A stretch of DNA of 64,000 bases, from the NCBI GenBank assembly GCA_000155695.1, contig DS990592.1, positions 3,472,335 to 3,536,334 on the forward strand, in the 5' to 3' direction. The notes under the pieces were generated by a model. It worked only from the letters and a program-made list of their open reading frames with translations. It did not search any database and was not told where the DNA came from. Source of the stretch: Verrucomicrobiia bacterium DG1235 (lineage in GTDB: Bacteria > Verrucomicrobiota > Verrucomicrobiia > Opitutales > Opitutaceae). Within the stretch, counting starts at the first letter, position 1. Every line of letters begins with the position of its first letter. A program made the translations under genes and the position numbers. Positions 1,737 through 47,812 of this stretch are shown here, in pieces.

Positions 1737-3914
1737 TCAGTCAATCCCCAGCAAACGAGACGTCTCCCGTTCGAGCACCCGCGCAAAAACCCAGTCGAAC
1801 CAGAATCCCTGCACCGGATTGCCTAGGTCAATCTCTCGCTGAAACTTCTCGTTCACCACAGTCCGCGCCTTGAAGAACGCCGCTTGAGCCTCATCCGTAC
1901 GGCCCATCTGATACGACGCCATTGCCAATACCAGCCGCGCCGTCGCATCGCGCGGAGCGTTCGGATCCGGATAGCCGAGGCAACGCTTCGCATAGGAAAC
2001 CGCTGCAGCGTAATTCGCACGACGATACTCGTACAAGGCGAGCGACATCGATCGCCAGGAAGCTTGAAACGTATCACCCGACAATTCAGCCGCCTCGCAC
2101 GCCTCGGCCGACATCTCCGCAAACGGCTTCAAGCGATCAAGCATCTCCCGGTTCGCGGAAACCAGCAGACTGATCTTCACGATACGATCCGTAAACGGAC
2201 TCTCCGCATCCGCAAACCGCTCGACCGCCTCTCGACGAAACCGATCGTACTCGTCCAAATCTCCCAGCTCCATCAGCACCGGCCCGAGCTCCAAATAATC
2301 GAGACTGGACACATCCGCCCCTTCTAACTGGTTGATTTTCAGCAAAGTCTTAAACCGTTCCGCCGCCAGCCCCCAACGATCATTCGTCGCGTGCCACTCG
2401 CCCAAAGCCCGGAAAACCGCCGCTCCCTCCATCGTGGCTTCGTTCAGCTCCACTCCGTCGACCAGATTGTCCGCCTCCTCGTACTCCCCATTGTTCACAA
2501 GCATCGCCGCCTGCGTAAGCCGCTCGCGAAACTCCGCTACCTGGCGCAGCCTCGCCTGCAGCTGCTCCGCTGCCACCGCCCTCTGCCGCGCCTCGCGTTC
2601 GCGAAGCAGCAGCACCGTGGAAAGTCCAAGACCGAAAACAAGCGTCAAAGCCACCGCGCTGGACGCAAGCACCACCACCCGGTTCCGCTTCACCATCTTC
2701 CGGAAGTTGTAGAAATACGAGGAGCGATGCGCCATCACCGGCTCATCCACAAGGTAGCGCTTCAACTCGATGGCTAGCGAATCCGCCGTCTCGTAGCGAC
2801 GACGCCTATCCTTCGAAAGCGCCTTCATCACGATACAGTCAAGATCCCCTTTCAGTCGGGAAATCAGCCCGCGCGGCGTCTTGTTGATCGCTTTGGCAAT
2901 TGTATCCGCCTCCTCACTACCGAGCTCACCAAAGCGGACCGAAGGCTTAGGCGGATCCTCCTTGCTGAGAATTCGCCGCAAGTCCGCCATGCCCACATGG
3001 GCCAGTCGATCCTTGTCGAAAGGCGTCACCCCCGTCAGCAATTCGTAGAGCAGCACCCCAAGACTATAAACATCGCTCCGCGTATCCACATCGAGACCGC
3101 CGAGCTGCACCTGCTCCGGACTCATGTAAGACGGCGTCCCGAGCACCTGCTTCTCCGGACCGGAAAAAAGCATCATCTCGCTAAAGCCCGCCTCCGTCGC
3201 CCGAGCGATTCCGAAGTCAATCACGCGCGGCACCGCGCCCCCGTCATGCTCGCTTACGATGATATTCGACGGCTTGATATCCCCGTGGATAATCCCCTTC
3301 TGGTGCGCGTGCTGGATCGCGTGACACACCTGGATAAAAAGATTGAGCCGATCGATAATGCCGAGTTTGTGATCCCGGCAATAATCCGTCAAAGCCTCCC
3401 CACGCACATGCTCCATCACGAAATACGGCGATCCACCCGCCGTCTCTCCCGCGTCGAAAACACGGGCGATATTCGGATGGTCCATCATGGCAAGCGCCTG
3501 GCGCTCCGCCTCGAAACGGGATATCACCCGCTCCGTCTCCATCCCTAGACGGATGATCTTCAAAGCCACCGCCCTTCGAACCGGCTCTTCCTGCTCGGCC
3601 AAGTAAACCACGCCGCAGCCGCCATCACCCAGACGCTGCAGCAAACGGTAGCGCCCGATGCGAACCCCGACCGATTCCTCTTCCTCGGGATCCCTGCGAA
3701 TCTTCTCCGCAATCTCCGCGGAATTAATCGCCTGCGCCCCTTCCTGGAAAAAATCCTCCACCTCGCCCTCGGATGCCAGCATCGACTCGAGCCGTACCTT
3801 CAGTCCCGGGTCGTCCTTGCACTCCTCCTCCAAAAACGCGCTCCGCTCCGTCGCGTCGCTCAAGGTTCGAGCCGCGTCAAATAACTTCTCTTCACGTACC
3901 GCTTCCGAGCTCAT
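1737..3914 (-). CDS. Transmembrane Ser/Thr protein kinase with TPR-type C-terminal region
   Basis: A 725-residue PknB-like kinase. A short N-terminal extension (ERSAFLEEECKDD-type, common in sigma-linked kinases) leads into the kinase domain at about residues 86-390: glycine loop LGDGGCGVVYLAEQ, VALKII lysine, catalytic loop HGDIKPSNI, DFGIAR and activation segment GTPSYMSPEQ. One membrane helix lies near 412-436 (VVVLASSAVALTLVFGLG), followed by a charged coiled-coil and helical TPR-like repeats. The catalytic loop has HGD rather than HRD, so it is a non-RD kinase. The ATG chosen is the one lying one base after the sigma-factor stop (TAGGATG); an upstream in-frame ATG would overlap that gene by 32 bases. 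The tight coupling to an ECF sigma gene suggests that the kinase controls, or is controlled by, that sigma factor (inference). Confidence 0.92.
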   Translation of the reverse strand: MSSEAVREEKLFDAARTLSDATERSAFLEEECKDDPGLKVRLESMLASEGEVEDFFQEGAQAINSAEIAEKIRRDPEEEESVGVRIGRYRLLQRLGDGGCGVVYLAEQEEPVRRAVALKIIRLGMETERVISRFEAERQALAMMDHPNIARVFDAGETAGGSPYFVMEHVRGEALTDYCRDHKLGIIDRLNLFIQVCHAIQHAHQKGIIHGDIKPSNIIVSEHDGGAVPRVIDFGIARATEAGFSEMMLFSGPEKQVLGTPSYMSPEQVQLGGLDVDTRSDVYSLGVLLYELLTGVTPFDKDRLAHVGMADLRRILSKEDPPKPSVRFGELGSEEADTIAKAINKTPRGLISRLKGDLDCIVMKALSKDRRRRYETADSLAIELKRYLVDEPVMAHRSSYFYNFRKMVKRNRVVVLASSAVALTLVFGLGLSTVLLLREREARQRAVAAEQLQARLRQVAEFRERLTQAAMLVNNGEYEEADNLVDGVELNEATMEGAAVFRALGEWHATNDRWGLAAERFKTLLKINQLEGADVSSLDYLELGPVLMELGDLDEYDRFRREAVERFADAESPFTDRIVKISLLVSANREMLDRLKPFAEMSAEACEAAELSGDTFQASWRSMSLALYEYRRANYAAAVSYAKRCLGYPDPNAPRDATARLVLAMASYQMGRTDEAQAAFFKARTVVNEKFQREIDLGNPVQGFWFDWVFARVLERETSRLLGID

Positions 3915-10676: not shown

Positions 10677-13600
10677 CTAGAAGGTGAAGGTGTTGCGCAG
10701 CGTCCAAGTAGTTGGAGCGCCAATACGCACCGTGCCTAGACTTCCGTCAGGCTGACCCGTCACCGGATAAAGGTCGTCACCGCCAAAAGCATTGCGAATG
10801 TTCAGCTGGATCTTCCAGTCTACGCTGTCATTGAGAGCCATCTCATAACCAGCCCAGAAATCCCAAGACTCCTCAGATCGGCCAAATATAGGATTGGCAA
10901 CGTCGTAAAGACTGCCATCAGCCCCTTGCGTGACTGGGAAACCTACCGTTGGAGCTTCCTGATAGCGCCAGCTGCCACCAAGGTTGAGACCAGCGAATCG
11001 GCCATCGGTGAAAGCGTAATTAGCCACCATGTTATAACGCCACTCGACAAGCTCAGGTACATTTCCGTTTTCCAGCGCTCGCCAGAAATTAAGACCAGCA
11101 ATGGTCTCGCGCATGTACTTGCCCTCGGTCGTTTCTCCACCCTGATCACTCAGAGTGTTGTCATCCTGAGGACCCCAAAGACGGATGTCGCCTTGAGGCG
11201 TGTTCTGGAAGTCCGCATAGCGAGCCTCGACGAAATCTACATACCCCGAAGCAAGATTCGAGCGCTGAGCTTCCGTCTGGGCCGCGTTGAAGGCGACACT
11301 CAAGCCATCGATGGGATTAGCTACCAGCTCGAGCTCGAAACCTTGCGAGAAGGTATCCGAAGTCGTGACCAAGCCTGGAGGACCAAAATTGGTCTGTCCG
11401 CCTTGAGTCTCGTAGTTGGTCAATGCCCACGTTTGCTGGAACTGCTCGGATACCGGATTCGCAAGCCAAGCGGTGATTGCCGCCTCCTGCACTGCATAGG
11501 CCGTATCCAACTGTTCCTGACTATAGTCTCCTTCACTGTCGGGATCGCCAGCAGGCTGGTAGACAACGTCGCCGCCTGAGCTTGAAGTACCGAACACCGT
11601 GGCGAAAGCGCCTCGCCGATCACGCGCTTCGAGAGCGTACTGCTGACCCCACGCCTCTACGGCGCCGATCAAGTAGTTGCCCGCAATCGCATCGCCAGCA
11701 TTCGCATTGAAGACCGTCGTCTCATACCAGTTCGCCTTAAGAGTGTACTTGTCGTCGAAAGCCGAAACACTGAAGCCATACTCCTCGGTTTCACCCGTTG
11801 GCGACGGCACAACATTTCCCAACACGTCGATACGACCCGCATCTGGCTGGAAGTTCTCCGACTCATTGTAGTGGAACGAAAGACTGACACCTGTATTGTC
11901 GCGGAAGGTTTGCGGCGTGTGCACCACAACACTCTTGGTGAGAGACTCCCCACTTTCAGAGTTGTAGGAGCGATTGTACGGCTGCAGATCATTCGGCCCG
12001 TTAGGGAGCTGAAAATCCGGATCAAAAGGATTTACAATACCGTCCACGCCGGGAAGCGTTCCGGCTCCGCGAGCGGTATCCGTATCCTTGCGCCAGCCAA
12101 TCATTGGCACGACCATTCCATCAAAAAGGAATCCCTGCCAAACCAAAGCTTCGGACTCGATCTTGTTGTCGAGCTTCGTCGCATTGGTGTAAGGTCGGCT
12201 TTCGAACGGCATCGAGTAGGCATTGACAATCTCGATAGGAATCGTCTGCCAGCCAATGTAGTTGGCAGGATCGTTGAGCTCGTCATCCGACAAACCATCC
12301 AGTTCCGGATCAAATCCGTCGACTGGCGTATTGTTCCAGACCGAGATCGAAGTGCTCGTAGGCGCCTGAAACGTAGTTACAGGGCTGATACCAAGTCCGC
12401 TGGCCGAGCTAGCTCCCGCTACGCTTCCGCCAAGGTAGCTAAACACGTGGGCATCTCGCTGGGCCTGATTGACCGCAGAACCCGCACTAGGAGCATAAGA
12501 ACTCCCAATGAAATTCCGCTTGTACGAGAAACTCTTATCGTCGATCTGATTCTCGCTATACAATCCCGTGAAGACATGGCGTCCTAGCCATTTCCCCAGT
12601 GTTTCATTGCTGGAATCCCGGAAGTCGAGCTCCCCATATACAGTCGCGCGCATGACCTCGCGATCACGCATCTCACGGTATCCGTCACCACTGCCGCTCG
12701 AGACAACCAATGGGCGGCCTACGTTCGGATTCTCCGTGCCGTCGACAAAATGAGAGATGACATCGACCGTGATTGCGGCAGCATCCGGGCTAAGGAAATT
12801 CTCGCGTCCCCAGTCCGCCGATTGCTTGTCGTAGGCCAGCTCGTATCCCAGACGGTTATCAAAGAAATTTTGACGAAACGCGAAATTCAGCGCGTCAAAA
12901 TCATTGAACTCCCGCTTGTTCGAACCTTCCAACAAATTGTCATAAAAGTTGAATACAGTCGGATCAACGAGCGACTTCGCCTTGTAAGCGCTGATATCCG
13001 TTCCCGGAAATGCAGTGCCGCCAACATTCGAAGCGTAGATGTTATAGGGGCCGATGCCACGAAGCTGACCTCCTCCAGAACCACGTGTGCCACCACTGCC
13101 GATGGGATAGGTCCGCACATCAGCCGGCGTAGCGTAAAGCTGATCGCCCTCTGGCGAAAACGCCACCGCTACCCCGTCGTAAACACGGTTCCCAATGGGA
13201 GCAAGCCAAGCAGAATAATTCGGCGAGCTCGACTGCGTCGCGCCCCCGTAGCCGTTCGGAGTCGTTCCGTCCGCAAGATACCAATCTTCGGAATCCGTTG
13301 AGGTAATCACGTCCGCGCGATAGGTCTGCTTCCCCATGCTCTCAAACCAAGGACTGATCATGTCAATCGGAGGCGTGAGGCGAGGGTTGTTGGACTCGAT
13401 TTCACCATTTTCGTAGCTGAACGAAAACTCACTATTATAGCTGGACCCACTTAACGCTGCAGGCTTCCAAGTTAAGGCTGCGAATAAACGCTCGTCATCG
13501 CGAAACGCCGGATCCTGACGGTAGTTCCTGTTGTCGCTCAAGAGCGCCACACGCGCCGCAAGCTCATCCTCAATCAACACTTTATTGAAATTAGCGGACA

Positions 13601-14240
13601 AACGAGTCGAGCCAAAGCTGCCAAACTCGATGGCGACTTCATTCTCATCACTGAAATCAGCGCTCTGCAACCCGGCGTTGATAATGCCAGCAGGCGATCC
13701 GATACCAAAAAGCACGGAGTTCGGCCCACGCTGCAGGTCAACGCGACTTATGTTATAAGAGTCCCATGGAATATCAGAGAGATAGAAACTCCGAGTATTG
13801 TCAGCTTCGTCAAGACCGCGAACACGCGTATTCGAAACCGGTGAGTTGCGATGCGTAGTGTCTAGAACCGCACCGGCTCCCCCTCCAACGAAGTTACCTC
13901 CCTGCCCCGCGACTTCCGTGCTCATCGCATAGACAAGCAAGTCTTCAGCGTTATTAGAGTTCGTATCCTTTAGAAACTCCTCCGTGACCACGGAGATAGC
14001 AGAACCTACATCCTTCAAGTTCGTGCGGATACGAGTACCCGCAAGAGTGGAAGTCGCTCGGTAGCCCGAATCGTCAGTACCCTCTACTGTGAAAGGACTG
14101 AGTTCGAATACGTCTTCCTCCTCGTCACTAGCTTGTCCAAAAGCGAGAGGGGAAACCAGAAGCATGACCCCGATCGCCAAAGATCGCGGCATACCTCTCG
14201 AATTTCGATTTAGATATGTTTGTTTGATAGTATTTTTCAT
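10677..14240 (-). CDS. TonB-dependent outer-membrane receptor (Opitutia type)
   Basis: 1187 residues. An N-terminal signal peptide (SLAIGVMLLVSPLAFGQ, cleaved near residue 36) is followed by EEDVFELSPFTVEG, a likely TonB box, and the plug domain (DVGSAISVVTEEFLKD... RVRGLDEADNTRSFYLSDIP, VDLQRGPNSVLFGIGSPAGI). The remainder is a 22-strand barrel with long extracellular loops, ending in the terminal-aromatic strand WTLRNTFTF. It takes up a large ligand across the outer membrane at the expense of the proton motive force. It stands alone, with its own terminator and a long leader. The ligand is probably a plant or algal oligosaccharide by context, but no SusD partner is present. Confidence 0.93.
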   Translation of the reverse strand: MKNTIKQTYLNRNSRGMPRSLAIGVMLLVSPLAFGQASDEEEDVFELSPFTVEGTDDSGYRATSTLAGTRIRTNLKDVGSAISVVTEEFLKDTNSNNAEDLLVYAMSTEVAGQGGNFVGGGAGAVLDTTHRNSPVSNTRVRGLDEADNTRSFYLSDIPWDSYNISRVDLQRGPNSVLFGIGSPAGIINAGLQSADFSDENEVAIEFGSFGSTRLSANFNKVLIEDELAARVALLSDNRNYRQDPAFRDDERLFAALTWKPAALSGSSYNSEFSFSYENGEIESNNPRLTPPIDMISPWFESMGKQTYRADVITSTDSEDWYLADGTTPNGYGGATQSSSPNYSAWLAPIGNRVYDGVAVAFSPEGDQLYATPADVRTYPIGSGGTRGSGGGQLRGIGPYNIYASNVGGTAFPGTDISAYKAKSLVDPTVFNFYDNLLEGSNKREFNDFDALNFAFRQNFFDNRLGYELAYDKQSADWGRENFLSPDAAAITVDVISHFVDGTENPNVGRPLVVSSGSGDGYREMRDREVMRATVYGELDFRDSSNETLGKWLGRHVFTGLYSENQIDDKSFSYKRNFIGSSYAPSAGSAVNQAQRDAHVFSYLGGSVAGASSASGLGISPVTTFQAPTSTSISVWNNTPVDGFDPELDGLSDDELNDPANYIGWQTIPIEIVNAYSMPFESRPYTNATKLDNKIESEALVWQGFLFDGMVVPMIGWRKDTDTARGAGTLPGVDGIVNPFDPDFQLPNGPNDLQPYNRSYNSESGESLTKSVVVHTPQTFRDNTGVSLSFHYNESENFQPDAGRIDVLGNVVPSPTGETEEYGFSVSAFDDKYTLKANWYETTVFNANAGDAIAGNYLIGAVEAWGQQYALEARDRRGAFATVFGTSSSGGDVVYQPAGDPDSEGDYSQEQLDTAYAVQEAAITAWLANPVSEQFQQTWALTNYETQGGQTNFGPPGLVTTSDTFSQGFELELVANPIDGLSVAFNAAQTEAQRSNLASGYVDFVEARYADFQNTPQGDIRLWGPQDDNTLSDQGGETTEGKYMRETIAGLNFWRALENGNVPELVEWRYNMVANYAFTDGRFAGLNLGGSWRYQEAPTVGFPVTQGADGSLYDVANPIFGRSEESWDFWAGYEMALNDSVDWKIQLNIRNAFGGDDLYPVTGQPDGSLGTVRIGAPTTWTLRNTFTF

Positions 14241-37765: not shown

Positions 37766-38317
37766 ATGCCCGTCTTTCGACTAAAAAAGCCCAGCTCGCC
37801 CGAGCCCCCCGCCATCGAAACCCTCTTCGCCGAGCTCGAGGCGCCGCTGCTCGCCTACGCCTATCGCATCACCGCCCAACTCGAAACCGCGCAAGACATC
37901 GTCCAAGACGCCTTCGTCAAACTCCACCAATCCTCCGCCCCCGTCCACTCGCCCAAACCCTGGCTCTACCGGACCGTGCACAACCTCGCCATCAACCTCA
38001 GCAAACGCCGCTCCCGCGAAACCCCATTCGACCCCGCCAACAACACCAACACTCCCCCCGAAACCTCCTCTTCCACCCAATCCTCCGCGCCGAGCAAAGC
38101 CCTCGAACAAGCCGAAATCCAAGGCCTCACCCGCCTCCTCATCGAACAACTCGACCCCCGCAGCCGCGCCGTCGTCCAACTCAAATTCCACGACGGACTC
38201 AGTTACGCCCAAATCGGCGAGAAACTCGGCCTCACCCCTTCCAACGTCGGCTACATCCTCCACCAAGCCGTCTCTTCCCTCGCCTCCGAATTCAAAAAAC
38301 TGGGACTGAGAAAATGA
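37766..38317 (+). CDS. ECF sigma factor heading the vWA operon
   Basis: 183 residues with sigma-70 region 2 (FAELEAPLLAYAYRITAQLE, then TAQDIVQDAFVKLHQ and KPWLYRTVHNLAINLSKRR), a proline/threonine-rich linker and region 4 (LDPRSRAVVQLKFHDGLSYA, QIGEKLGLTPSNVGYILHQA). It directs RNA polymerase to a still unknown promoter set. Its stop codon overlaps the start of the next gene (ATGA), so the two proteins are made together. That coupling fits a sigma/anti-sigma pair, and the downstream protein does have an anti-sigma-like N-terminus. Confidence 0.92.
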   Translation: MPVFRLKKPSSPEPPAIETLFAELEAPLLAYAYRITAQLETAQDIVQDAFVKLHQSSAPVHSPKPWLYRTVHNLAINLSKRRSRETPFDPANNTNTPPETSSSTQSSAPSKALEQAEIQGLTRLLIEQLDPRSRAVVQLKFHDGLSYAQIGEKLGLTPSNVGYILHQAVSSLASEFKKLGLRK

Positions 38318-41085
38318 AACACACGCCAAACCAGCCCGACTCTCCCACGCCCGACGAAAAGCTCCTCGCCGCCCTCCTCGGCGAAACCAGCGACCCCGTC
38401 TACGAGCAACTTCGTCAGCAAATCGCCACCGACCCCGACCTCGCCGCCAAAGCCGACCGTCTGCAACACGCAGCCAACTGTATCCAGGAAGTCCTTACCG
38501 CAGACGATGCCCAATCCACCGACACCCCACCGCTCGCCTTCACCCCGGAAAGCCGCACAAAACTCCTCGAGCAACTAAAAACGCCCCCAGTCTCCGCCAA
38601 GGAGAGGAAGCCCTTCTCCGTCAATTTCGCCCACCCCGCCTGGGGCATCGGCATCGCAGCCTGCCTCTTCTTCGGCCTCTCCTTCCACTTCCTCTTCCAA
38701 TCAAGCGGCATCTTCTCCGCCAACCACTCCGAGCTCGCCCGCCTCCGCGAACTCAACGTCGCCGAAGCCCCCGAGCCCCCACCCCCAGAGTTCGCCGATT
38801 CCCTCGCCGAAGACGAATCCCCCGCGCCACCTTTGGCACTCTCCAAACTCGAGATGGCCCTCGCACCCGGCAGCAGCGAAAGGATCTACAAGCCCACCCT
38901 CGAAGCCATGGAAAACGAGCTCATCGTCAACCAAAGCCAAAACCAAGTCCGCCGAAGAAAATCCCCCGCAGCCGGAGAAATCGTCCTCCGCCAGAAAGCC
39001 TTCTCAGCACCCACATTCTCCGAATCGGACACCATCGCCTTCTCCGACTTCGAACAAACCCACGGCTCAAACACTTCCGTCGCCAACACCCGGATACGCG
39101 CCGATCTCCAAGACGTCGGCTCCGCCATCACCGTCGTCACCCAGGAGTTCCTTCAAGACACTGGCGCTACAGACGTCGACTCCCTCATCGCCTACACGAC
39201 TTCATCCGAAGTCGGAGGAACAAACGGAATCTTCCTCCCCAACGATGTCGATGTTCGCTCCCACGAACCCCTTTTCGGATCCTATCAAGAAACGGACGAA
39301 GAAGAGATCTTCGAACTCTCCCCCTTCACTGTCGAAGCTAGTTTCAACTCAGGCTACCGCGCCACCAGTACCCTTGCCGGCTCCCGCCTCCGCTCAAATC
39401 TAACTGACAGATCCTCAACGACCACCGGTCGCGATCGCTACGGTTTCTTCACCCCCTACCTCCCCGAGTCCAGCTCCTCCCCCGACCACAAAGAGCTCCG
39501 CGTCACCTTCGATGCCCGCCCACGTCTCCCCTTCCAAAACACAGCAAACTCCCCAACACCCAGCTCCCCAAGCCTAGCCGCCGACACCTTCAACCCAGAA
39601 CCTATTACCGAGAACCCACCATCCAGCTTCAACCTAGCCGAAGGCCTCGATAATCCAAACCTCGTCGCCGCATCCACAGCCAACGCCACACAAACCGCCC
39701 CCAATAACGACGAACCCCTACCCAGAACCCAGAACCCACCACCCACCACCCAATTATCCGAGTATCCAGAATCCAATACCGCCACGGATCCCCAGTCCAC
39801 TTTCTCGCTCAACGTCTCCGACGTCTCCTACCGTCTCACCGAAGCCTACCTTGCCCAAAACGTCCGACCACCAGCCGGCACCCTGCGCACCGAAGAATTC
39901 GTCAACGCCTTCGACTACGGCGACCCCACCCCACCCGTCGCCCGAAAAATCGGCTTCACCTGGGAGCGCGCCCACTGGCCCTTCGCCCACGACCGCGACG
40001 TCCTGCGCTTCTCCCTCCAGACCGCCGCACACGGCCGCGCCAGCTCCCAGCCGCTCCACCTCACCCTCGCCATCGACACCTCCGGCTCCATGTCCCGACC
40101 CGACCGCGTCGACATCGTCAACTCCCTCGCCACCGCACTCCAGTCCAACCTCACCGAAAAAGACCGCCTCAGCATCGTCTCCTTCGATCGCCAGCCACGC
40201 CTCGTCCTCGACGGCCAAAGCGTCACCGCCGAAACAAACCTCGCCACGCTCGCCACCCAACTCAACCCCCAAGGCGGCACCGACCTCGAAAGCGCCCTCC
40301 AGCTCTCCTACCAAACCGCCCAACGACACTTCCAAGAAAACGCCATCAATCGCGTCATCCTCATCACCGACGGAGCCGCCAACCTCGGAAACACCAACGC
40401 CGAACAACTCCGAACAACCGTCACGGAAAACCGGATACGCGGCATCGCCCTCGATTGCTTCGGCATCGGATTCGACGGACACGACGACACCTTCCTCGAA
40501 TCCCTCTCCCGAAACGGAGACGGCCGCTACCGCTTCCTCCGCAGCCCCGAAGACGCCGCCCTAGAGCTCGGCCCCAAACTCGCCGGACTCCTCCGCCCCG
40601 CCGCCTACGACGTCAAAGTCCAAGTCGAGTTCAACCCCACCCGCGTCGAAACCTACCAACAGCTCGGCTACCAACAACACCAGATCGCCGACCAGGACTT
40701 TCGCAACAACGCCGTCGACGCCGCCGAACTCGCCGCCACCGAATCCGGCAACGCCCTCTACCTCGCCAAAGTCCTCCCCGACGGACGCGGCGACCTCGGA
40801 CTCGTGCGCGTCCGCTTCCGCGACGCCGAATCCGGAGCCTACGAAGAACTGTCATGGAATCTCCCCTACAAGGCCAACGCCCCCGAGCTCGACCAAGCCT
40901 CCCCCTCACTCCGCCTCGCCAGCATCGCCGCCGCTTTCGCCGCCCTCCTCAACGAAAGCCCCCTCGCCCACGCCATCACCCATAGCGACCTCTACGAACT
41001 CGCCGCCCCACTCCCCCAACACTTCCCCACCCAAACCCGAGTCCAAACCCTCCGCACCCTCATCAACCAAGCCCGCCGCCTCTAA
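38314..41085 (+). CDS. Composite anti-sigma-like / TonB-plug-like / YfbK-type von Willebrand A protein
   Basis: 923 residues. 1-105: cytosolic helical segment with anti-sigma look (DEKLLAALLGETSDPVYEQL... DPDLAAKADRLQ); 109-128 membrane helix (GIGIAACLFFGLSFHFLF). 258-308: NTRIRADLQDVGSAITVVTQ then EFLQDTGATDVDSLIAYTTS, closely similar to the start of the TonB receptor plug at 14 kb. 330-366: EIFELSPFTVEASFNSGYRA then TSTLAGSRLRSNLTD, the receptor's TonB-box region, here after the plug segment, so order is permuted. 405-490: low-complexity linker encoded partly by heptad repeats. 493-560: YfbK N-domain; 580-760 vWA with complete MIDAS (D588TSGS592, GGTD, TDGA); then DUF3520-type end. Translationally coupled to the ECF sigma factor. 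Probably an inner-membrane anti-sigma with periplasmic sensor part (inference). Confidence 0.85.
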   Translation: MKHTPNQPDSPTPDEKLLAALLGETSDPVYEQLRQQIATDPDLAAKADRLQHAANCIQEVLTADDAQSTDTPPLAFTPESRTKLLEQLKTPPVSAKERKPFSVNFAHPAWGIGIAACLFFGLSFHFLFQSSGIFSANHSELARLRELNVAEAPEPPPPEFADSLAEDESPAPPLALSKLEMALAPGSSERIYKPTLEAMENELIVNQSQNQVRRRKSPAAGEIVLRQKAFSAPTFSESDTIAFSDFEQTHGSNTSVANTRIRADLQDVGSAITVVTQEFLQDTGATDVDSLIAYTTSSEVGGTNGIFLPNDVDVRSHEPLFGSYQETDEEEIFELSPFTVEASFNSGYRATSTLAGSRLRSNLTDRSSTTTGRDRYGFFTPYLPESSSSPDHKELRVTFDARPRLPFQNTANSPTPSSPSLAADTFNPEPITENPPSSFNLAEGLDNPNLVAASTANATQTAPNNDEPLPRTQNPPPTTQLSEYPESNTATDPQSTFSLNVSDVSYRLTEAYLAQNVRPPAGTLRTEEFVNAFDYGDPTPPVARKIGFTWERAHWPFAHDRDVLRFSLQTAAHGRASSQPLHLTLAIDTSGSMSRPDRVDIVNSLATALQSNLTEKDRLSIVSFDRQPRLVLDGQSVTAETNLATLATQLNPQGGTDLESALQLSYQTAQRHFQENAINRVILITDGAANLGNTNAEQLRTTVTENRIRGIALDCFGIGFDGHDDTFLESLSRNGDGRYRFLRSPEDAALELGPKLAGLLRPAAYDVKVQVEFNPTRVETYQQLGYQQHQIADQDFRNNAVDAAELAATESGNALYLAKVLPDGRGDLGLVRVRFRDAESGAYEELSWNLPYKANAPELDQASPSLRLASIAAAFAALLNESPLAHAITHSDLYELAAPLPQHFPTQTRVQTLRTLINQARRL

Positions 41086-41366: not shown

Positions 41367-41506
41367 ACACACAACCCACACAACAAAAACCCAATTACCC
41401 AAAACATCTGAGCCCATCCGTGCAATTGTTTCGGCGCTACGCTTCTCAAGTGTCGTCGTTTCACTCCTCGGTAATGGGCAAAAACCAACTCTCAACCTCT
41501 AATCCC

Positions 41507-44500
41507 ATGAAGCTACTCCCTAAACTCGCCGCCCTTTCACTTCTCACCCTTCTCTCCCCTCTCTTCCTCCCACCCGTATCCGCCGCGGATATACAAGTCC
41601 GCCAGCTTTCCCTCGTCGGCACGCTCACCGAATCAGGCGTCGAGTTCACCGCTACCGGCACCATTGAAGTCGACAACAAGCGGGGTGCCGACATCAGCCT
41701 GCTCGCCGGAAACGTCGCCCTCCTCGAGCCCCCCACCCTTAAGTCAGGAAAAATCGAATACAAAGAAGGCGAGTACCGAGCCATCTACACCCGAAGCGGC
41801 GAATACCCCTTCACCCTGCGCTTCCTCGCCAAAGTCCACGAAACCGATGACCAGAAGTCCGTCGCCTTCAACTTCCTATCCACCCCAATTCGTCGCCTCG
41901 AACTCAAACGCTTCCCCGCCGATGCCAAGCTTCGCGTCGAAAACGCCGCCACCCCCGTTCTCCAAGGCGACACCTGGATCGCCCCCCTCTCTCCCAACTC
42001 CCTCATAAAATTCTCCTGGAGCCCTGCCGTGCCCGACGACGAAGGCCAGCTTTTCTATACCGCGAACATCGCCAACGTCACCGACGTCGCCCCGGGCATG
42101 ATCAAGCAAAACCAAAAAGCGAAACTCCAGATCCTCCAAGGCGAACTCTCGGAAATCGCCTTCGCCCTCAACGGTCCGGGCGAAATCTCCCAAGTCGAAG
42201 GTCGCGACATCCTTGGCTGGAAAGTCGACACCCTCGACACCTCCTCCCGACGCCTTCTCGTTCGCTTCAACCGCCCGCAATCGGGCTCCATCGCCCTTCT
42301 CATCCGTTCTCAGACCGCCCTCCCAAAACTCCCGACCTCCACCTCGCCCCTCCTCATCGAACCGCTGGCAGCCACCCGCTCCAGCGGAAACCTCCTCCTT
42401 CTCAGCGACGGCGCCGTCAACCTTGGCATCGCCTCCTGGCAAAACCTCTCCCAAATCTCTCCGGAGCAAGTCCCGCTCGACACCGGCGAAAAACAGGCCC
42501 TCCGCATCTCCGATCGCCAGGCATTCGGCTTCCGCTACGCAGGCATCGGCCAAGAACTTCAGATCCAGATCGACGACATACTACCGGAAATTTCCGTATC
42601 AGCCATTTACCTACACCACCTCGGTCTCAACGAGACCAGCATCGACCTCGACCTCAATATCGAGATCCGAGACGCATCCCTACAGGAGCTCTCCCTCGTC
42701 CTACCGAGCGACTTCTCCATCCTCAGCATTCAACAGCCACAGCTTAACGACTACACCACCTCCGCCCGCGACAGCTCCTCCCAAAACCTCCGCCTCCTCT
42801 TCAGTCGCCCCCTCATCGGACGCCAAACCCTCAAACTCTCCCTCGAACGAAACGGCGAACTATCAGCCGGCTCCCTCCCCCTTCCGCGCATCGATGTCCC
42901 CGAAGCCAAAACCGTACGCGGATACCTCGGCGTCACATCCGATTCCGGACTAAAAGTCACCCGAGCAACCGACTCCGGCCTCACCGAAATCATCCCGAGC
43001 TACTTCCCTGTAAAGAACGATCAACTACAAGTCGCCTACCGACTTCGCGAAACAGACTGGTCAGCATCCGTCCAAGTCGAACGCCTGGAGCCGACCATTC
43101 AAGCCGAAGCCTTTCACCTCTTTTCCCTCGCCGAGAGCGTCGTCTATGGCAGCACCATCCTGACCTACCAAATCTCGGGAGCCCCCGTGCAAAACCTCGC
43201 CCTCCAACTCCCCGACTCCTACCAAAACGTCGAGCTGAGCGGAGCCAACATCCAAGACTGGAGCAAGGAAGACGAGTCCTACCTGGTCAATTTCCACTCG
43301 CCCATCTCCGGCTCCTACTCACTCCTCGCCACCTACGAATCAAAGCATAGCGAAAACGCCCCTGCCCTTTCCTTCTCCGGAGCCACCCCGCTCGACACGC
43401 ATTCAGAACGTGGATACATCGTTTTCGTCAGTCCCAACCAAGTCGAAATCGACCTCGGCCAACTTCAAAGCCCCCTCCTTGCCCTCGAGCCGAAAGAGCT
43501 ACCCCCTGAATACCAGATCATGGTCGACTCCCCCATTATCGCCAGCCTCCACTACGCCAGCCGTCCCTTCACCTTGGATACAAATATCCTCGCCCTACCA
43601 CGCGAGAAATCCATCGACCAAGTCGTCGAACTGGCAGACATCGAAACTAGCATCACCAAAACAGGCGAAATCCTCTTCGAGGCGAACTACGTCTTTAAAT
43701 CCAAAAACGTAGCCAACTTTTCCCTACAGCTTCCCGAAACCGCACGCCTCTGGAAAATCGCCGTCGATGGAACAGAACCGGTCGTCTCTCGTGACGGAGA
43801 CCAAATCCTCATCCCCATCTCCAACGAAAGCAAATCCCTCACGCGACGCCTCTCCATACGCTACACCTTGCAGCAAGACGTCGCCCAGGCCTTCACCCTC
43901 ACCACTCCCCAACTCGCCGCGCCCATTCTCAAGACACATTGGATCCTGCAAGCCGACGAGGGTTACCAGCTCTACTTCATCGAGGGAACGATCGCTCCCT
44001 TCGCTCGCCCTAACAATCCCTCTCCGCTGCAAAGCTTCGCGCACCCAACCTCCTCGCATCCTCGCTCAGCCGCTTTCCAACCACTCCTCATCGTCTCCGT
44101 ATTCGCCCTTCCAATACTTTTCTTCCTACGCCGCTCCCAATTCATGAATCGCCTTCGCTGGCTCCCCTATCTTGCTTGTCTCGCCGCCTCCTTCGGCCTC
44201 CTTCTGACAATCCCCTTCGCGAGCTCCTTCCAGCAAGCCGCTCCCACCAAAGAAACGCGTTCCCTAAGCATTCAAGATACCGTCCTCTCCGCCGGAGAAT
44301 CGCTTAGCCTTACCCTCAACAACATCGAAGCAAAAGCGCCTCCATCCTCCGCCTCTCCCATCCCTGGCATCCTTCTCGCTATCGCCCTTCCCTTCGCATT
44401 CCGCTGGGCCTCAGGGAGATTCGCCACTCCCTCCGCGCGGCTTCCAGCCCTTCTCGGCGCCAACCTACTTACCGCTGGCATCTTCGCCTTCCTGCCAAAC

Positions 44501-47500
44501 GGAGCTGCTCTCCTCGTCGCTCTCCTCGCCAGCCTCTATTTTTCACCCATCCTTCAGATATCGATCGATTTTATCGTATCCAATTTCCGCTCACGATCCG
44601 AAAACAACAAACTCGCCACGGCCGGTGCGGCCACCGCCCTGCTTTTCTTGCTATCCATCGCTCCGCCTTCAGCCGACGCTCAAGAAAGAGTCCTCACCCA
44701 AGGCGACGGCTCCCAGTTCGTGCGAAGCGAAGCAGTCGACCTGAAAGCCTTCGTCACCGACGAATTCGCCACCGTAACACTGAACTTCACATGGGACGCC
44801 GCCACCGGCGACTCCACTCCACTCCTCTTCGTTCCGGCCGTCATCACTCGACTGGAGATTCCCTCGAAATACGTTTCGCTCGGGCAACGCCCCGAAGGCC
44901 GTGGTTCAGTCTACACGCTAAACGCTTCGCGAGCCGGCAAGTACGAAATCGAAGTGGAATACCAGACCCCCGTTCAGAACCGAAACGGAGTATGGAATTT
45001 CTCGATACAATCCCTCCCTAGCCTTGTCTACCAAAGCGAAATCACTTTCGACCGAGAGGATTGCGAAGTGCTCTGCGACTCCGCCGTGGGAATTCGCTAC
45101 CTCTCCGCAAACGACGACGCTCAGACCAAAGCGGCCCTTCGCTTCAAGCCGAATTGGAATATCTCCATCACCTCCAAGCCGCGCGACCGAGACACCCGCC
45201 TGGAAGAAACCGTCTTCTACGCGGAAACCGTCAACTCCTACCATCCCCAGGCGGGAGCGATCGCTGGCTACCACCACTCCACCCTGCGTATCGCCCAAGG
45301 CGAACTGCGCTCCGTCTCCCTCGCTATCCCCCCAAGCGCTACCGTCACGGATGTCGCGGCCGCCTGGGTCGAAACCTGGCGCTACGACCCGTCTAGCCAT
45401 ACCCTCGCCATCTCCGCAAATCGCCCGCTCAAGGGAACCGTTGAATTCATCTTCCAAACCCAGACCAACGCCCGAGCCCTCCCTTACTCCGCCAAACTCG
45501 AGCTGGTCCGCTTCCCGCTCGCCGACAGCGAACTGGGCTGGCTCGGACTCTCCGTTTCCCCGGAGGAACAGTTCGCATCCATCACCGCCAGCAACGCCCT
45601 CGCCAGCGCCTCCGTCTACGATTTTCCGGCCATCGCCGCCCCACAAGCCCTCGACTCGAAGCTGCGCCGCGCCTACCGCTACGCCGATCCATCCGCTTCC
45701 ATCACTTTCGAGCTGGCAAAAGTAGATCCGGAAATCCGCGTCGAAAGCGAAGAGCTCACCTCCCTCAGCGAAGACCGCATCGTCCACAACGCTACGCTCA
45801 AAACTCAAATCCTTCGCAGCGGAGTATTCCAAATCCAACTACAGATTCCACCCGCCTACGATATTGAGAAAATCTCGGGGCCCGAAATCAGCCACTGGAC
45901 CGACTCCACCAACGCCGAAGGCAAACGCATCACCCTCCACTTCAAGAACCGCACCGAAGGCTCCACTACACAGTACCTCACCCTGTCCGCGCCGGGCATC
46001 CGCCAAAGCGAAAACTGGAGCCCTCCTCATATCAAAGTCGTCAACGCCTCCAAACAACGCGGATCCCTCACCCTTTCTCCCGAGCTCGGACTCCAGTTCA
46101 AGCTCCTCCAACGCGCAGGCGTCTCCCAGCTAGACCCTTACGAGGTCAGCGTCATCGACCACAACCGCATCGGCTTCCGCCTCCTCGAGACCGATTGGAA
46201 ACTCGCCCTCCAAATCGAACCGGTCGATCCTTGGATCGATTGCCAGCTCCTTCAAGACCTCACCTTCAAGTCGGGCATCATCGAGACCAAAGCCGCCCTC
46301 CACTACGAAATCAAAAACGCCGGAGTTAAACAGCTGCGCCTGCGCCTGCCAGCCTCAGCAGTCGGAGTCAGATTCATCGGCGAACACATCTCAGGATTCC
46401 AACAGGCCCAAAACGATCCCACCATTTGGGAAGTCGACTTGGACCGTCGCCTCATCAACAACTACGTCCTCCAAGTCGAGTATCAGGAATTCGACGACAA
46501 CGCGAATAAAGCCCACACCGTTTCAGGTATCACCACATTGGATACTCAACTCCAGGAATGCTTCCTCAGTCTGAGAACCGAACAACGCCTCAGCCTCCAG
46601 CTCGAGCAAATCCCCGCCTCTCTCGCCCAAATCGAATGGCAACAGGTTCCCGACACCCTTCGTTCCGCAAAAAGCCCAACCTCTGCCAGCGCCGTCTACC
46701 GCACCATCCAGCCAGACTACGCACTCGCCCTCTCAGTCCAGCGCCTTGACATGGCCCAAGTCCTCCCCGCCGAGATCCGTCGCGTCACGCTCGACTCCAC
46801 CCTCTCGGAGTCAGGCATGATCTTGACCCGCGCCACCTTCAGCCTCGACTCCGGACACAAGCCAAACCTCAGCTTTCTCCTCCCGCCCGGATCCCAGTTC
46901 TGGTCCTGCAACGTGGCTGGCCAAAGCGTCTGGCCGGTCGAAAAAGAAGGCAAACTCCTCGTCCCACTCGAATCCAGCAGCTCAGGCGGCGCCCTCATCG
47001 ACGTCGAACTCAACTACCTCCTGCCCGCCCCGAAGTCCCAAGCCGCCTTCGCCTTCATCGGACCCCAGTGCGACCTCCCCCTCGAAAACATCCAGTGGCG
47101 ACTCTTCATCCCCGCCAGTTTCCAAGAACTCGAGTGGGACGGCTCCCTCGATCTCGTGGAAAACGCCCGCAACTACTCCGACTCCTTCGACCTCGCCGCC
47201 CTCATCGGGCGAAACGAGAAGCTGGAATCCCAAAAACTCAAAAACGCGGAAAACCTCCTGAAACTGGGCAACACTCTTGCGAAAGAAGGCAAGCAGATCG
47301 ACGCCAAACGAGCCTTCGAGTCCGCCTACAACCTCTCGCTCAACGACCTCGACTTCAACGAAGACGCCCGAGTCCAGTGGAACAACCTCCGCATCCAGCA
47401 AGCCATGGTCGGCCTCACCACCCGCCGCAACAACGCCTTCAACAAAACCGCCCCGCAAGACCTCAACCTGCACCAAGTCCAGGGAGACCAGATCAACTTC

Positions 47501-47812
47501 TCCAACGAATGGGCATCGCAGCTCCTCCAAGACAACAACTCCGCCGAAGTAAACCGAGCCCTCTCCGACCTCGCCCTCCGCTTCGTCGAACACCAAGACT
47601 CCGCCTTGCGCAACCCCAGCGGCCTCACCCTACTGCTCCCCGAGCACGGACGCCGCTACACCTTCCAACGCAAGCTCCAAGCCGAACCCTGGCAAGCCAT
47701 GACAATCAATCTCCAAACTTCGGATACAAAAAGCCACGCCACTCTACCCCTCCTACTAGCGCTAGCAGCCACCCTCGCCCTCACCCTAATCTACCCCACC
47801 AAACGCAAATAA
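41507..47812 (+). CDS. Giant two-fold duplicated membrane/periplasmic beta-protein of unknown function
   Basis: 2101 residues from the ATG opening a clean signal peptide (LLTLLSPLFLPPVSAA). Residues 25-850 and 1065-1960 are two homologous beta-rich halves; aligned landmarks include RGYLGVTSDSGLKV / RGSLTLSPELGLQF, YRLRETDWSASVQVE / FRLLETDWKLALQIE and LPETARLWKIAVDG / LPPGSQFWSCNVAG. Between them lie about five membrane helices (858-1058) ending in ATALLFLLSIAPPSADA, a second signal-peptide-like site. The end has TPR-like helices (AENLLKLGNTLAKEGKQIDA) and a last helix (LPLLLALAATLALTLIYP). No known enzyme motif. It lies 420 bases after the vWA gene on the same strand and is likely its partner. 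Codon use equals that of neighbours, so it is not a recent import. Confidence 0.85.
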   Translation: MKLLPKLAALSLLTLLSPLFLPPVSAADIQVRQLSLVGTLTESGVEFTATGTIEVDNKRGADISLLAGNVALLEPPTLKSGKIEYKEGEYRAIYTRSGEYPFTLRFLAKVHETDDQKSVAFNFLSTPIRRLELKRFPADAKLRVENAATPVLQGDTWIAPLSPNSLIKFSWSPAVPDDEGQLFYTANIANVTDVAPGMIKQNQKAKLQILQGELSEIAFALNGPGEISQVEGRDILGWKVDTLDTSSRRLLVRFNRPQSGSIALLIRSQTALPKLPTSTSPLLIEPLAATRSSGNLLLLSDGAVNLGIASWQNLSQISPEQVPLDTGEKQALRISDRQAFGFRYAGIGQELQIQIDDILPEISVSAIYLHHLGLNETSIDLDLNIEIRDASLQELSLVLPSDFSILSIQQPQLNDYTTSARDSSSQNLRLLFSRPLIGRQTLKLSLERNGELSAGSLPLPRIDVPEAKTVRGYLGVTSDSGLKVTRATDSGLTEIIPSYFPVKNDQLQVAYRLRETDWSASVQVERLEPTIQAEAFHLFSLAESVVYGSTILTYQISGAPVQNLALQLPDSYQNVELSGANIQDWSKEDESYLVNFHSPISGSYSLLATYESKHSENAPALSFSGATPLDTHSERGYIVFVSPNQVEIDLGQLQSPLLALEPKELPPEYQIMVDSPIIASLHYASRPFTLDTNILALPREKSIDQVVELADIETSITKTGEILFEANYVFKSKNVANFSLQLPETARLWKIAVDGTEPVVSRDGDQILIPISNESKSLTRRLSIRYTLQQDVAQAFTLTTPQLAAPILKTHWILQADEGYQLYFIEGTIAPFARPNNPSPLQSFAHPTSSHPRSAAFQPLLIVSVFALPILFFLRRSQFMNRLRWLPYLACLAASFGLLLTIPFASSFQQAAPTKETRSLSIQDTVLSAGESLSLTLNNIEAKAPPSSASPIPGILLAIALPFAFRWASGRFATPSARLPALLGANLLTAGIFAFLPNGAALLVALLASLYFSPILQISIDFIVSNFRSRSENNKLATAGAATALLFLLSIAPPSADAQERVLTQGDGSQFVRSEAVDLKAFVTDEFATVTLNFTWDAATGDSTPLLFVPAVITRLEIPSKYVSLGQRPEGRGSVYTLNASRAGKYEIEVEYQTPVQNRNGVWNFSIQSLPSLVYQSEITFDREDCEVLCDSAVGIRYLSANDDAQTKAALRFKPNWNISITSKPRDRDTRLEETVFYAETVNSYHPQAGAIAGYHHSTLRIAQGELRSVSLAIPPSATVTDVAAAWVETWRYDPSSHTLAISANRPLKGTVEFIFQTQTNARALPYSAKLELVRFPLADSELGWLGLSVSPEEQFASITASNALASASVYDFPAIAAPQALDSKLRRAYRYADPSASITFELAKVDPEIRVESEELTSLSEDRIVHNATLKTQILRSGVFQIQLQIPPAYDIEKISGPEISHWTDSTNAEGKRITLHFKNRTEGSTTQYLTLSAPGIRQSENWSPPHIKVVNASKQRGSLTLSPELGLQFKLLQRAGVSQLDPYEVSVIDHNRIGFRLLETDWKLALQIEPVDPWIDCQLLQDLTFKSGIIETKAALHYEIKNAGVKQLRLRLPASAVGVRFIGEHISGFQQAQNDPTIWEVDLDRRLINNYVLQVEYQEFDDNANKAHTVSGITTLDTQLQECFLSLRTEQRLSLQLEQIPASLAQIEWQQVPDTLRSAKSPTSASAVYRTIQPDYALALSVQRLDMAQVLPAEIRRVTLDSTLSESGMILTRATFSLDSGHKPNLSFLLPPGSQFWSCNVAGQSVWPVEKEGKLLVPLESSSSGGALIDVELNYLLPAPKSQAAFAFIGPQCDLPLENIQWRLFIPASFQELEWDGSLDLVENARNYSDSFDLAALIGRNEKLESQKLKNAENLLKLGNTLAKEGKQIDAKRAFESAYNLSLNDLDFNEDARVQWNNLRIQQAMVGLTTRRNNAFNKTAPQDLNLHQVQGDQINFSNEWASQLLQDNNSAEVNRALSDLALRFVEHQDSALRNPSGLTLLLPEHGRRYTFQRKLQAEPWQAMTINLQTSDTKSHATLPLLLALAATLALTLIYPTKRK

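Follow-up and report, generated by a model that had tools for sequence, protein, structure and literature searches.

Receptor-like TonB-box and plug segments in the linker of a YfbK-type von Willebrand factor A protein of Verrucomicrobiia bacterium DG1235

The vWA locus and its receptor-like segments

We analyzed a 64,000-nucleotide stretch of contig DS990592.1 of Verrucomicrobiia bacterium DG1235 (assembly GCA_000155695.1; hereafter the window), in which the gene of a YfbK-type von Willebrand factor A (vWA) protein follows that of an extracytoplasmic function (ECF) sigma factor. A preliminary description made from the letters alone had proposed that this vWA protein, which is not a receptor, contains the TonB box and the plug beginning of a TonB-dependent receptor in permuted order. 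The features concerned are given below in window positions (aa, amino acids; pLDDT, predicted local distance difference test).

37766..38317, + strand: ECF sigma-70 factor gene (Sigma70_r2 E 1.9e-11, Sigma70_r4_2 E 3.5e-11)
38314..41085, + strand: YfbK-type vWA protein, 923 aa (Pfam: YfbK_C 1e-25, VWA_2 4.3e-13, vWF_A 5.5e-13)
38314..38628, + strand: N-terminal helical region, helices at aa 13-65 and 78-89 (AlphaFold2 pLDDT 76-90 for aa 11-60)
38629..38700, + strand: single hydrophobic segment, aa 106-129, presumed transmembrane helix (top Kyte-Doolittle 19-residue mean, 1.81 at aa 110)
38701..39735, + strand: linker, aa 130-474, mostly disordered by AlphaFold2 pLDDT, housing both receptor segments
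39064..39234, + strand: copy 1 of the receptor segment, aa 251-307, with the plug N-terminus but a lost or degenerate box part (profile positions 27-83, E 2.6e-18)
39286..39417, + strand: copy 2 of the receptor segment, aa 325-368, with the TonB box and STLAGSRLRSNL but no plug part (profile positions 3-46, E 9e-17)
39754..40761, + strand: vWF_A, VWA and start of YfbK_C, aa 481-816 (Pfam)
10677..14240, - strand: TonB-dependent receptor, reference for box and plug N-terminus (Plug 6.7e-8)

The residues quoted in the preliminary description are present in the linker: TRIRADLQDVGSAITVVTQEF occupies aa 259-279 (39088-39150), EIFELSPFTVE aa 331-341 (39304-39336) and STLAGSRLRSNL aa 352-363 (39367-39402). 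In a BLASTP comparison with the receptor at 10677-14240 (-), 31 of 45 residues of the box segment (69%; E 1e-13) and 35 of 92 residues of the plug segment (E 2e-12) were identical, and no alignment with E <1 was obtained beyond these two segments. The profile used above was built from 16 of the 17 N-termini collected as receptors in the DG1235 genome, with the vWA protein L029 omitted. A script-built profile of the same 16 segments scored the window copies at 62.7 and 58.3 bits, and none of 2660 shuffled vWA open reading frames (ORFs) reached 8 bits. The copies lie at G000:C6:3511398-3511568 and G000:C6:3511620-3511751 in genome coordinates.

The preliminary description had named an alignment to the Pfam plug model as a check, and as worded this check fails (16.0 bits, E 0.017, cut-off 23.9), whereas the profile of receptors from the same genome detects both copies. 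Pfam Plug alone misses the segments because the model is too general for this receptor type; it misses them in relatives too and was therefore rejected as the sole test. The complete plug and beta-barrel of a receptor are absent from the protein, for the Plug match is partial and below cut-off, Pfam gave no barrel domain and the AlphaFold2 model contains no barrel. Judged from these alignments, the linker evidently holds a genuine copy of a receptor N-terminus, including its TonB box.

The plug segment does precede the box segment, as had been described, but the arrangement is not a permutation. Profile positions 27-46 are found in both copies, so that the copies overlap on the receptor. This rules out a circular permutation and therefore argues for a partial duplication with complementary losses, in which a doubled stretch was trimmed differently in each copy.

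The claim that the DNA differs from receptors at most third positions was borne out. The best identity to receptors of the same genome was 61% for copy 1 and 70% for copy 2. Against the 16 receptors, the proportion of synonymous differences (pS) was 0.43-0.92 for copy 1 and 0.51-1.06 for copy 2, and that of nonsynonymous differences (pN) was 0.22-0.47 for both, much like the medians between receptors (pS 0.775, pN 0.30). Silent sites are thus saturated while amino acids are constrained, and L032, from another genome of the same genus, has the same segment order, which agrees with the earlier view of an old, selected arrangement. An assembly chimera or recent recombination artefact was considered and rejected as extremely improbable: we found no support for it, synonymous sites are near saturation against most receptors of the genome, and the trait occurs in other genera besides L032.

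Within the DG1235 genome, the receptor profile gave 20 matches, of which 17 fell in ORFs of 974-1310 aa, two in the window vWA protein and one in a 659-aa protein. The latter (L351/L029; positions 1938-3914 on the reverse strand of G000:C6:3880800-3886800) is likewise a vWA protein (VWA E 3.8e-19, no YfbK_C), which opens like a receptor with a signal peptide and a TonB box and continues into the vWA domain. The only non-receptor ORFs matched in this genome were therefore vWA proteins. vWA proteins were also matched in four relatives (G005, G010, G017 and G029). Twelve regions were fetched for closer reading; among the relatives' ORFs, L347, L348, L349, L350, L352 and L354 are whole-looking or cut receptors and L345 is an apparent broken receptor, while other mid-sized ORFs (735-1012 aa) were counted as smaller receptors by size and L343, L346 and L353 were left unclassed. 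A third kind of non-receptor box carrier is L344 (G017:C22:2000-3490), a secreted non-vWA protein with no Pfam match, in which the signal peptide is followed directly by a TonB box (VVVLSPFQVSSSEDRGY). As for TonB itself, the DG1235 genome has 29 TonB_C matches, one of them below cut-off. Two of its ORFs apparently contain several TonB_C domains, one of 409 aa with four matches (G000:C5:60902-61969) and one of 454 aa with three (G000:C6:2127764-2128948).

The rest of the window vWA protein conforms to the YfbK type, with vWF_A, VWA and YfbK_C in this order and all above Pfam cut-offs. Residues D588, S590, S592, T656 and D686, which we take to be those of the metal ion-dependent adhesion site (MIDAS), are invariant in alignment A2 (38 rows). 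AlphaFold2 predicted the vWA part to be well folded. The pLDDT was below 50 at aa 87-272, the hydrophobic segment included, and at aa 291-474, and blocks within aa 271-290 reached 55-65. The receptor segments were not docked onto the vWA domain in this model, whose input alignment had no linker homologues. A Foldseek search with the vWA part placed Sec23/24-like ArnAB, a bacterial vWA protein and inter-alpha-inhibitor on top, and a Protein Data Bank sequence search at E 0.01 returned four matching entries with no YfbK among them.

The N-terminal helical region is presumed to be cytoplasmic and anti-sigma-like. The Pfam scan gave no domain there and no FecR match at E ≤ 1 in the protein; a search for an anti-sigma domain yielded a weak zf-HC2 match, below cut-off, in the relative L153 (E 0.0034). 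The sigma factor gene, whose product scored above the cut-off of NCBIfam sigma70-ECF and below that of TIGR02985, shares its last 4 bp with the vWA gene in ORF coordinates. Downstream, 334 bp beyond the vWA gene, lies a 2130-aa ORF (41420-47812, +) with no Pfam or NCBIfam match. As to TolQ/TolR-like genes beside the vWA gene, the two neighbours scanned are this sigma factor gene and this ORF without a match.

Recurrence and retention in the bacterial family

The Pfam YfbK_C model matched 137 of the 252 genomes of the bacterial family to which DG1235 belongs. From this family-wide listing, 100 YfbK regions were picked by hand and fetched. A hidden Markov model search gave 134 vWA ORFs (133 distinct, from 130 loci). 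We kept 111 vWA proteins with a vWA score >300 and a linker >60 aa, and dropped 22; 108 of the linkers come from the family and three (L033, L040 and L047) from outside. The receptor segment was detected at ≥9 bits in 29/111 linkers, in every case before the vWA domain; across all 133 distinct ORFs 30 were positive, the thirtieth being L029. The same 29 linkers matched receptors when the 111 were compared by BLAST with the N-terminal halves of 16 receptors and with one receptor in full, and all but 2 of the alignments lay within the 90 residues after the box. Of the carriers, 14 belong to the subfamily that includes the window protein (26 proteins) and 15 to the classic YfbK subfamily (85 proteins), and segment presence changed state at least 15 times on the vWA tree.

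The order of the segments differs among relatives. It is box-plug in L135, L153, L133 and L035, box-plug-box in L136 (extra box 10.2 bits) and L039 (second box only 7.7 bits), and plug-then-box in L032, L145, L146, L137 and L034. A partial tandem duplication followed by complementary loss would explain these orders. The linker of L041, from another genus, has the beginning of a receptor of a different class, and over 53 aa it is 75% identical to a receptor that the same genome encodes (pS 0.72, pN 0.17). Its sister YfbK linker L176 (the two are from G009 and G127, of one genus) seemingly holds, as judged by eye, a different, adjacent piece of the same receptor plug, as would result from different trimming of a longer capture.

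According to motif expressions, 27 of the 29 positive linkers have the box, 21 the TR motif that follows it and 13 plug strand 1. Likewise, 27-29 linkers cover the sampled profile positions 13-41, falling to 8-20 at positions 61-81. The TonB box is thus the best-kept element of the captured segment. Constraint on the segment was assessed in genus g63, for which the matching receptor orthogroup was identified. Here the vWA copies differ from each other with pS 0.59 and pN 0.18, and the receptor pairs with pN 0.07-0.12 (three of them 0.04-0.06) at pS 0.5-0.57. Since pN is well under pS, yet above that of the receptors, the vWA copies look constrained, though less than receptors are; a similar signal could in part arise if the captured piece came from a receptor outside our sample. 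The ratio of nonsynonymous to synonymous substitution rates (dN/dS) was uneven over ten same-genus pairs, linker alignments were poor, and dS of the motif often exceeded that of the vWA part (1.16 vs 0.44 for L135/L136). We therefore put more weight on g63, with its matching receptor orthogroup, than on these pairs.

In 99 of the 111 vWA loci, the vWA gene is preceded by a sigma-factor ORF of the same strand; three have none and nine are too short to judge. It is therefore likely that the vWA protein regulates its co-encoded sigma factor, though no anti-sigma domain was recognised.

YfbK-type proteins of other phyla

A scan of named genomes for the YfbK signature gave at least 117 loci, and the counts in this paragraph apply to the loci listed. 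An IVVTG-type TonB box was present in 18 of 25 linkers from Alphaproteobacteria (23) and unclassed Pseudomonadota (2), as opposed to 4 of 92 others, one of which, L265, is itself a receptor-like piece as judged by eye. In shuffled sequences, the expression occurred in 17/5000 for the 25-linker set and in 127/18400 for the 92 others. Examples are VVVTGSRIPGGSVVAASPV in Brevundimonas (L193) and RVVVTGNKREETTQDIAVGVTAI in Hyphomonadaceae (L269). Around the 25 loci, the expression matched 18 times in 3,893 aa of linker, not at all in 9,613 aa of vWA parts, and twice in the 44,069 aa of 102 neighbouring genes. A profile of alphaproteobacterial receptors, built from 28 of 30 receptor segments after removal of two with misread frames, reached ≥6 bits in 8/25 linkers vs 0/92 (shuffles 2/1250 and 2/4600); with earlier linker boundaries, the counts were 8/23 in Alphaproteobacteria, 1/2 in the unclassed group and none elsewhere. 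Plug matches numbered 11-63 per genome in the 12 genomes searched. None of the seven clostridial linkers had an IVVTG-type match; to our knowledge, clostridial bacteria have no such TonB-dependent receptors.

In Bacteroidota, we examined a small sample of two YfbK proteins, one from Bacteroides finegoldii and one from Bernardetia. Both open with a signal peptide, a CarbopepD_reg_2 domain (E 5e-12 and 4e-19, respectively) and a box (LEECVVVGYGT and LEEVVVTGYS), arranged as in SusC-type receptors; a receptor of the same Bacteroides strain has LDDVVVIGYGS. The N-terminus of the Bacteroides YfbK protein matches 144 plasmid records, and among the 30 matches listed, 19 fall under genes for TonB-dependent receptors or SusC, two under vWA genes, and nine are unannotated.

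Other beginnings and linkers were also seen. CarboxypepD_reg-like starts occur in the YfbK proteins L265 (bacterium Bpl_9) and L196 by Pfam, and in L246, L247, L303 and L273 by eye; L265 appears, again by eye, to run on into a box and plug. Passenger-associated (PATR) repeats stand in place of receptor pieces in other Verrucomicrobiota (L222 by Pfam; L241, L305, L036 and L038 by eye).

The distribution of box and plug across these groups bears on a possible partner other than TonB. The segment might mimic a receptor N-terminus towards the vWA domain of the same protein, or towards a chaperone or protease that deals with unfolded plugs, so that the vWA domain would sense receptor biogenesis with the linker as a tethered competitor. 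Such a role would suit the retention of plug strand 1 and onward beyond the box in L135, L136, L153 and L133, the plug start without a box in L119, and the intact MIDAS residues. The box is nevertheless retained more often than the plug, alphaproteobacterial and Bacteroidota linkers keep mostly the box, and the AlphaFold2 model shows no docking; on balance, we regard this as rather improbable.

A possible TonB role and comparison with known systems

TonB energises outer-membrane receptors, and some bacteriocins and phages hijack it. Since the box is the best-retained element and is lineage-matched across phyla, contact with TonB is the explanation that we favor: with slightly better than even confidence, we propose that the YfbK-type vWA protein sits in the inner membrane, that its captured box is bound by TonB, and that it acts as a sigma regulator sensing TonB occupancy. 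The receptor sequence in the periplasmic linker would stem from the 5' end of a gene for a TonB-dependent receptor; once captured, it would have been partly duplicated, with the start of the plug surviving in copy 1 and the TonB box in copy 2. Binding by TonB would be what maintains the exposed box. TonB would park on the vWA protein while receptors have no need of it; loaded receptors would expose their own boxes and outcompete the vWA protein for TonB, which might then be released or pulled differently, thereby freeing the sigma factor. If this is true, cells with dozens of receptors gain a physical means to sense how busy their TonB motors are.

A wider form of this proposal is more tentative. 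YfbK-type vWA proteins of at least three phyla (Verrucomicrobiota, Pseudomonadota and Bacteroidota) may have independently gained the box of their own receptors and become a second class of TonB clients, on which ExbBD-TonB pulls or by which it is counted, with the ECF sigma output reporting TonB occupancy to transcription in the bacterial family of DG1235; we consider this quite possible, at somewhat less than even chances. Unless the clades share a binding partner, it is difficult to see why each uses the peptide of its own receptors, and TonB is the candidate to which this match points. The occurrence of vWA proteins with the box of their own lineage suggests, as far as sequence comparison goes, that TonB may act on more than receptors.

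Several observations weigh against a TonB role. The segment is absent from 82 of the 111 vWA linkers and, within the window's own genus, from the vWA protein L044 of G006; five of the eight genomes of this genus have no YfbK_C match at all (three have one). The preliminary description had held that homologues lacking both segments would overturn its claim, and such homologues do exist beside the 29 carriers, but they are no refutation because the trait comes and goes on the vWA tree. Two of the 29 positive linkers, L119 and L141, have receptor pieces but no box; what L176 seems to have kept, judged by eye, is confined to a later part of the plug. In three of the ten pairs (L136/L039, L099/L091 and L099/L119), identity of the motif is the same as or lower than that of the rest of the linker. 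Other linkers hold PATR (L222, E 3e-8), weak TPR or weak STN (L224) matches, and that of L196 carries a CarboxypepD_reg domain without an obvious box. Finally, the IVVTG expression was composed after alphaproteobacterial sequences had been viewed, and a held-out set was therefore drawn from 51 genomes in the order to which L203 (Caulobacter ginsengisoli) belongs. A match was found in 25 of these, giving 24 regions (the centre genome being in the first set), of which 21 were parsed and three lost to the signature filter. This set spoke in favor of a box: the expression occurred in 9/21 linkers vs 13/4200 shuffles, and the receptor profile reached ≥6 bits in 5/21 linkers (shuffles 3/1050). One of these expression matches (L377) lies in a signal peptide and another (L373) duplicates the L284 segment, which leaves 7/20; near misses were L368 (MVVTGSRI) and L374 (GVTGSRIP).

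The presence of PATR and STN implies that the linker tolerates capture in general, and much of the above would follow if disordered vWA linkers were simply a sink that gains pieces of abundant envelope genes by recombination and lets them decay slowly, with no TonB role. The many linkers without a segment, the different pieces of one plug kept by the sisters L041 and L176 (the latter by eye), the motif being no better conserved than the linker in three of ten pairs, and the faster evolution of the g63 vWA copies than of receptors (pN 0.18 at pS 0.59 vs 0.04-0.12 at 0.5-0.57) would all suit such passive uptake. It accounts less well for captured pieces that nearly always derive from the receptor N-terminus (all but 2 alignments), for a box kept in 27/29, for pN well under pS, for separate lineages carrying the box of their own receptors, and for non-receptor matches in the DG1235 genome that are confined to vWA proteins. 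We therefore judge passive uptake to be unlikely, though it is the foremost alternative and deserves serious consideration. In receptor-free genomes (those outside the 202 with a receptor match at 1e-12, assigned by hand), 1/18 linkers was positive vs 27/90 elsewhere (Fisher p 0.038, kinship ignored), which is compatible with both TonB binding and passive uptake.

Among known families, the window protein shares all three domains and the signature residues with the YfbK family (PF12450, VWA and PF12034), and differs from it by the receptor-derived TonB-box and plug segments in the linker. With the TonB-dependent receptors of its own genome it has in common the TonB box, the STLAGTR stretch, represented by STLAGSR after the box in copy 2, and the plug N-terminus; the receptors continue into a complete plug and barrel, in place of which the window protein has a vWA domain. 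We found no description of TonB boxes in vWA or YfbK proteins in the open-access literature, which was covered mostly at title and abstract level, with subscription papers and preprints outside the scope. In PMC4571129, a yfbK gene appears in a table of mutations.

The remaining comparisons draw on parts of three published papers. FecI/FecR/FecA-type signalling, as described for Fox (PMC11637429), likewise combines an ECF sigma factor with a membrane-anchored partner and uses the N-terminal region of a receptor, and the same source gives precedent for control of anti-sigma stability by N-terminal domains of receptors. In the window, by contrast, the receptor-like peptide lies inside the presumed regulator itself, which has no FecR domain, and what was captured is box and plug rather than the signalling domain of a transducer. 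The vWA force transducers of PMC12204202, which also occur in Verrucomicrobia, resemble the window protein in their inner-membrane tether, YfbK-like fold and disordered linker. In the portion of that paper we drew on, these inner-membrane vWA proteins are proposed to be driven by a TolQR-like motor by a route other than a TonB box, in one family through an SHLS motif in the transmembrane helix; their function is given as unknown and no deletion phenotype is reported. The SHLS motif is absent from the transmembrane segment of the window protein (AHPAWGIGIAACLFFGLSFHFLFQ), and the gene beside it encodes a sigma factor.

A non-receptor protein with its own TonB box is found among the TonB-dependent bacteriocins, e.g. 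pyocin S2 (PMC10994204), and the same work describes competition of a soluble FpvAI receptor plug for TonB as likely. Pyocin S2 is an imported toxin, whereas the window vWA protein is endogenous; if TonB does grip vWA proteins made by the cell itself, what YfbK-type proteins do can be tested directly.

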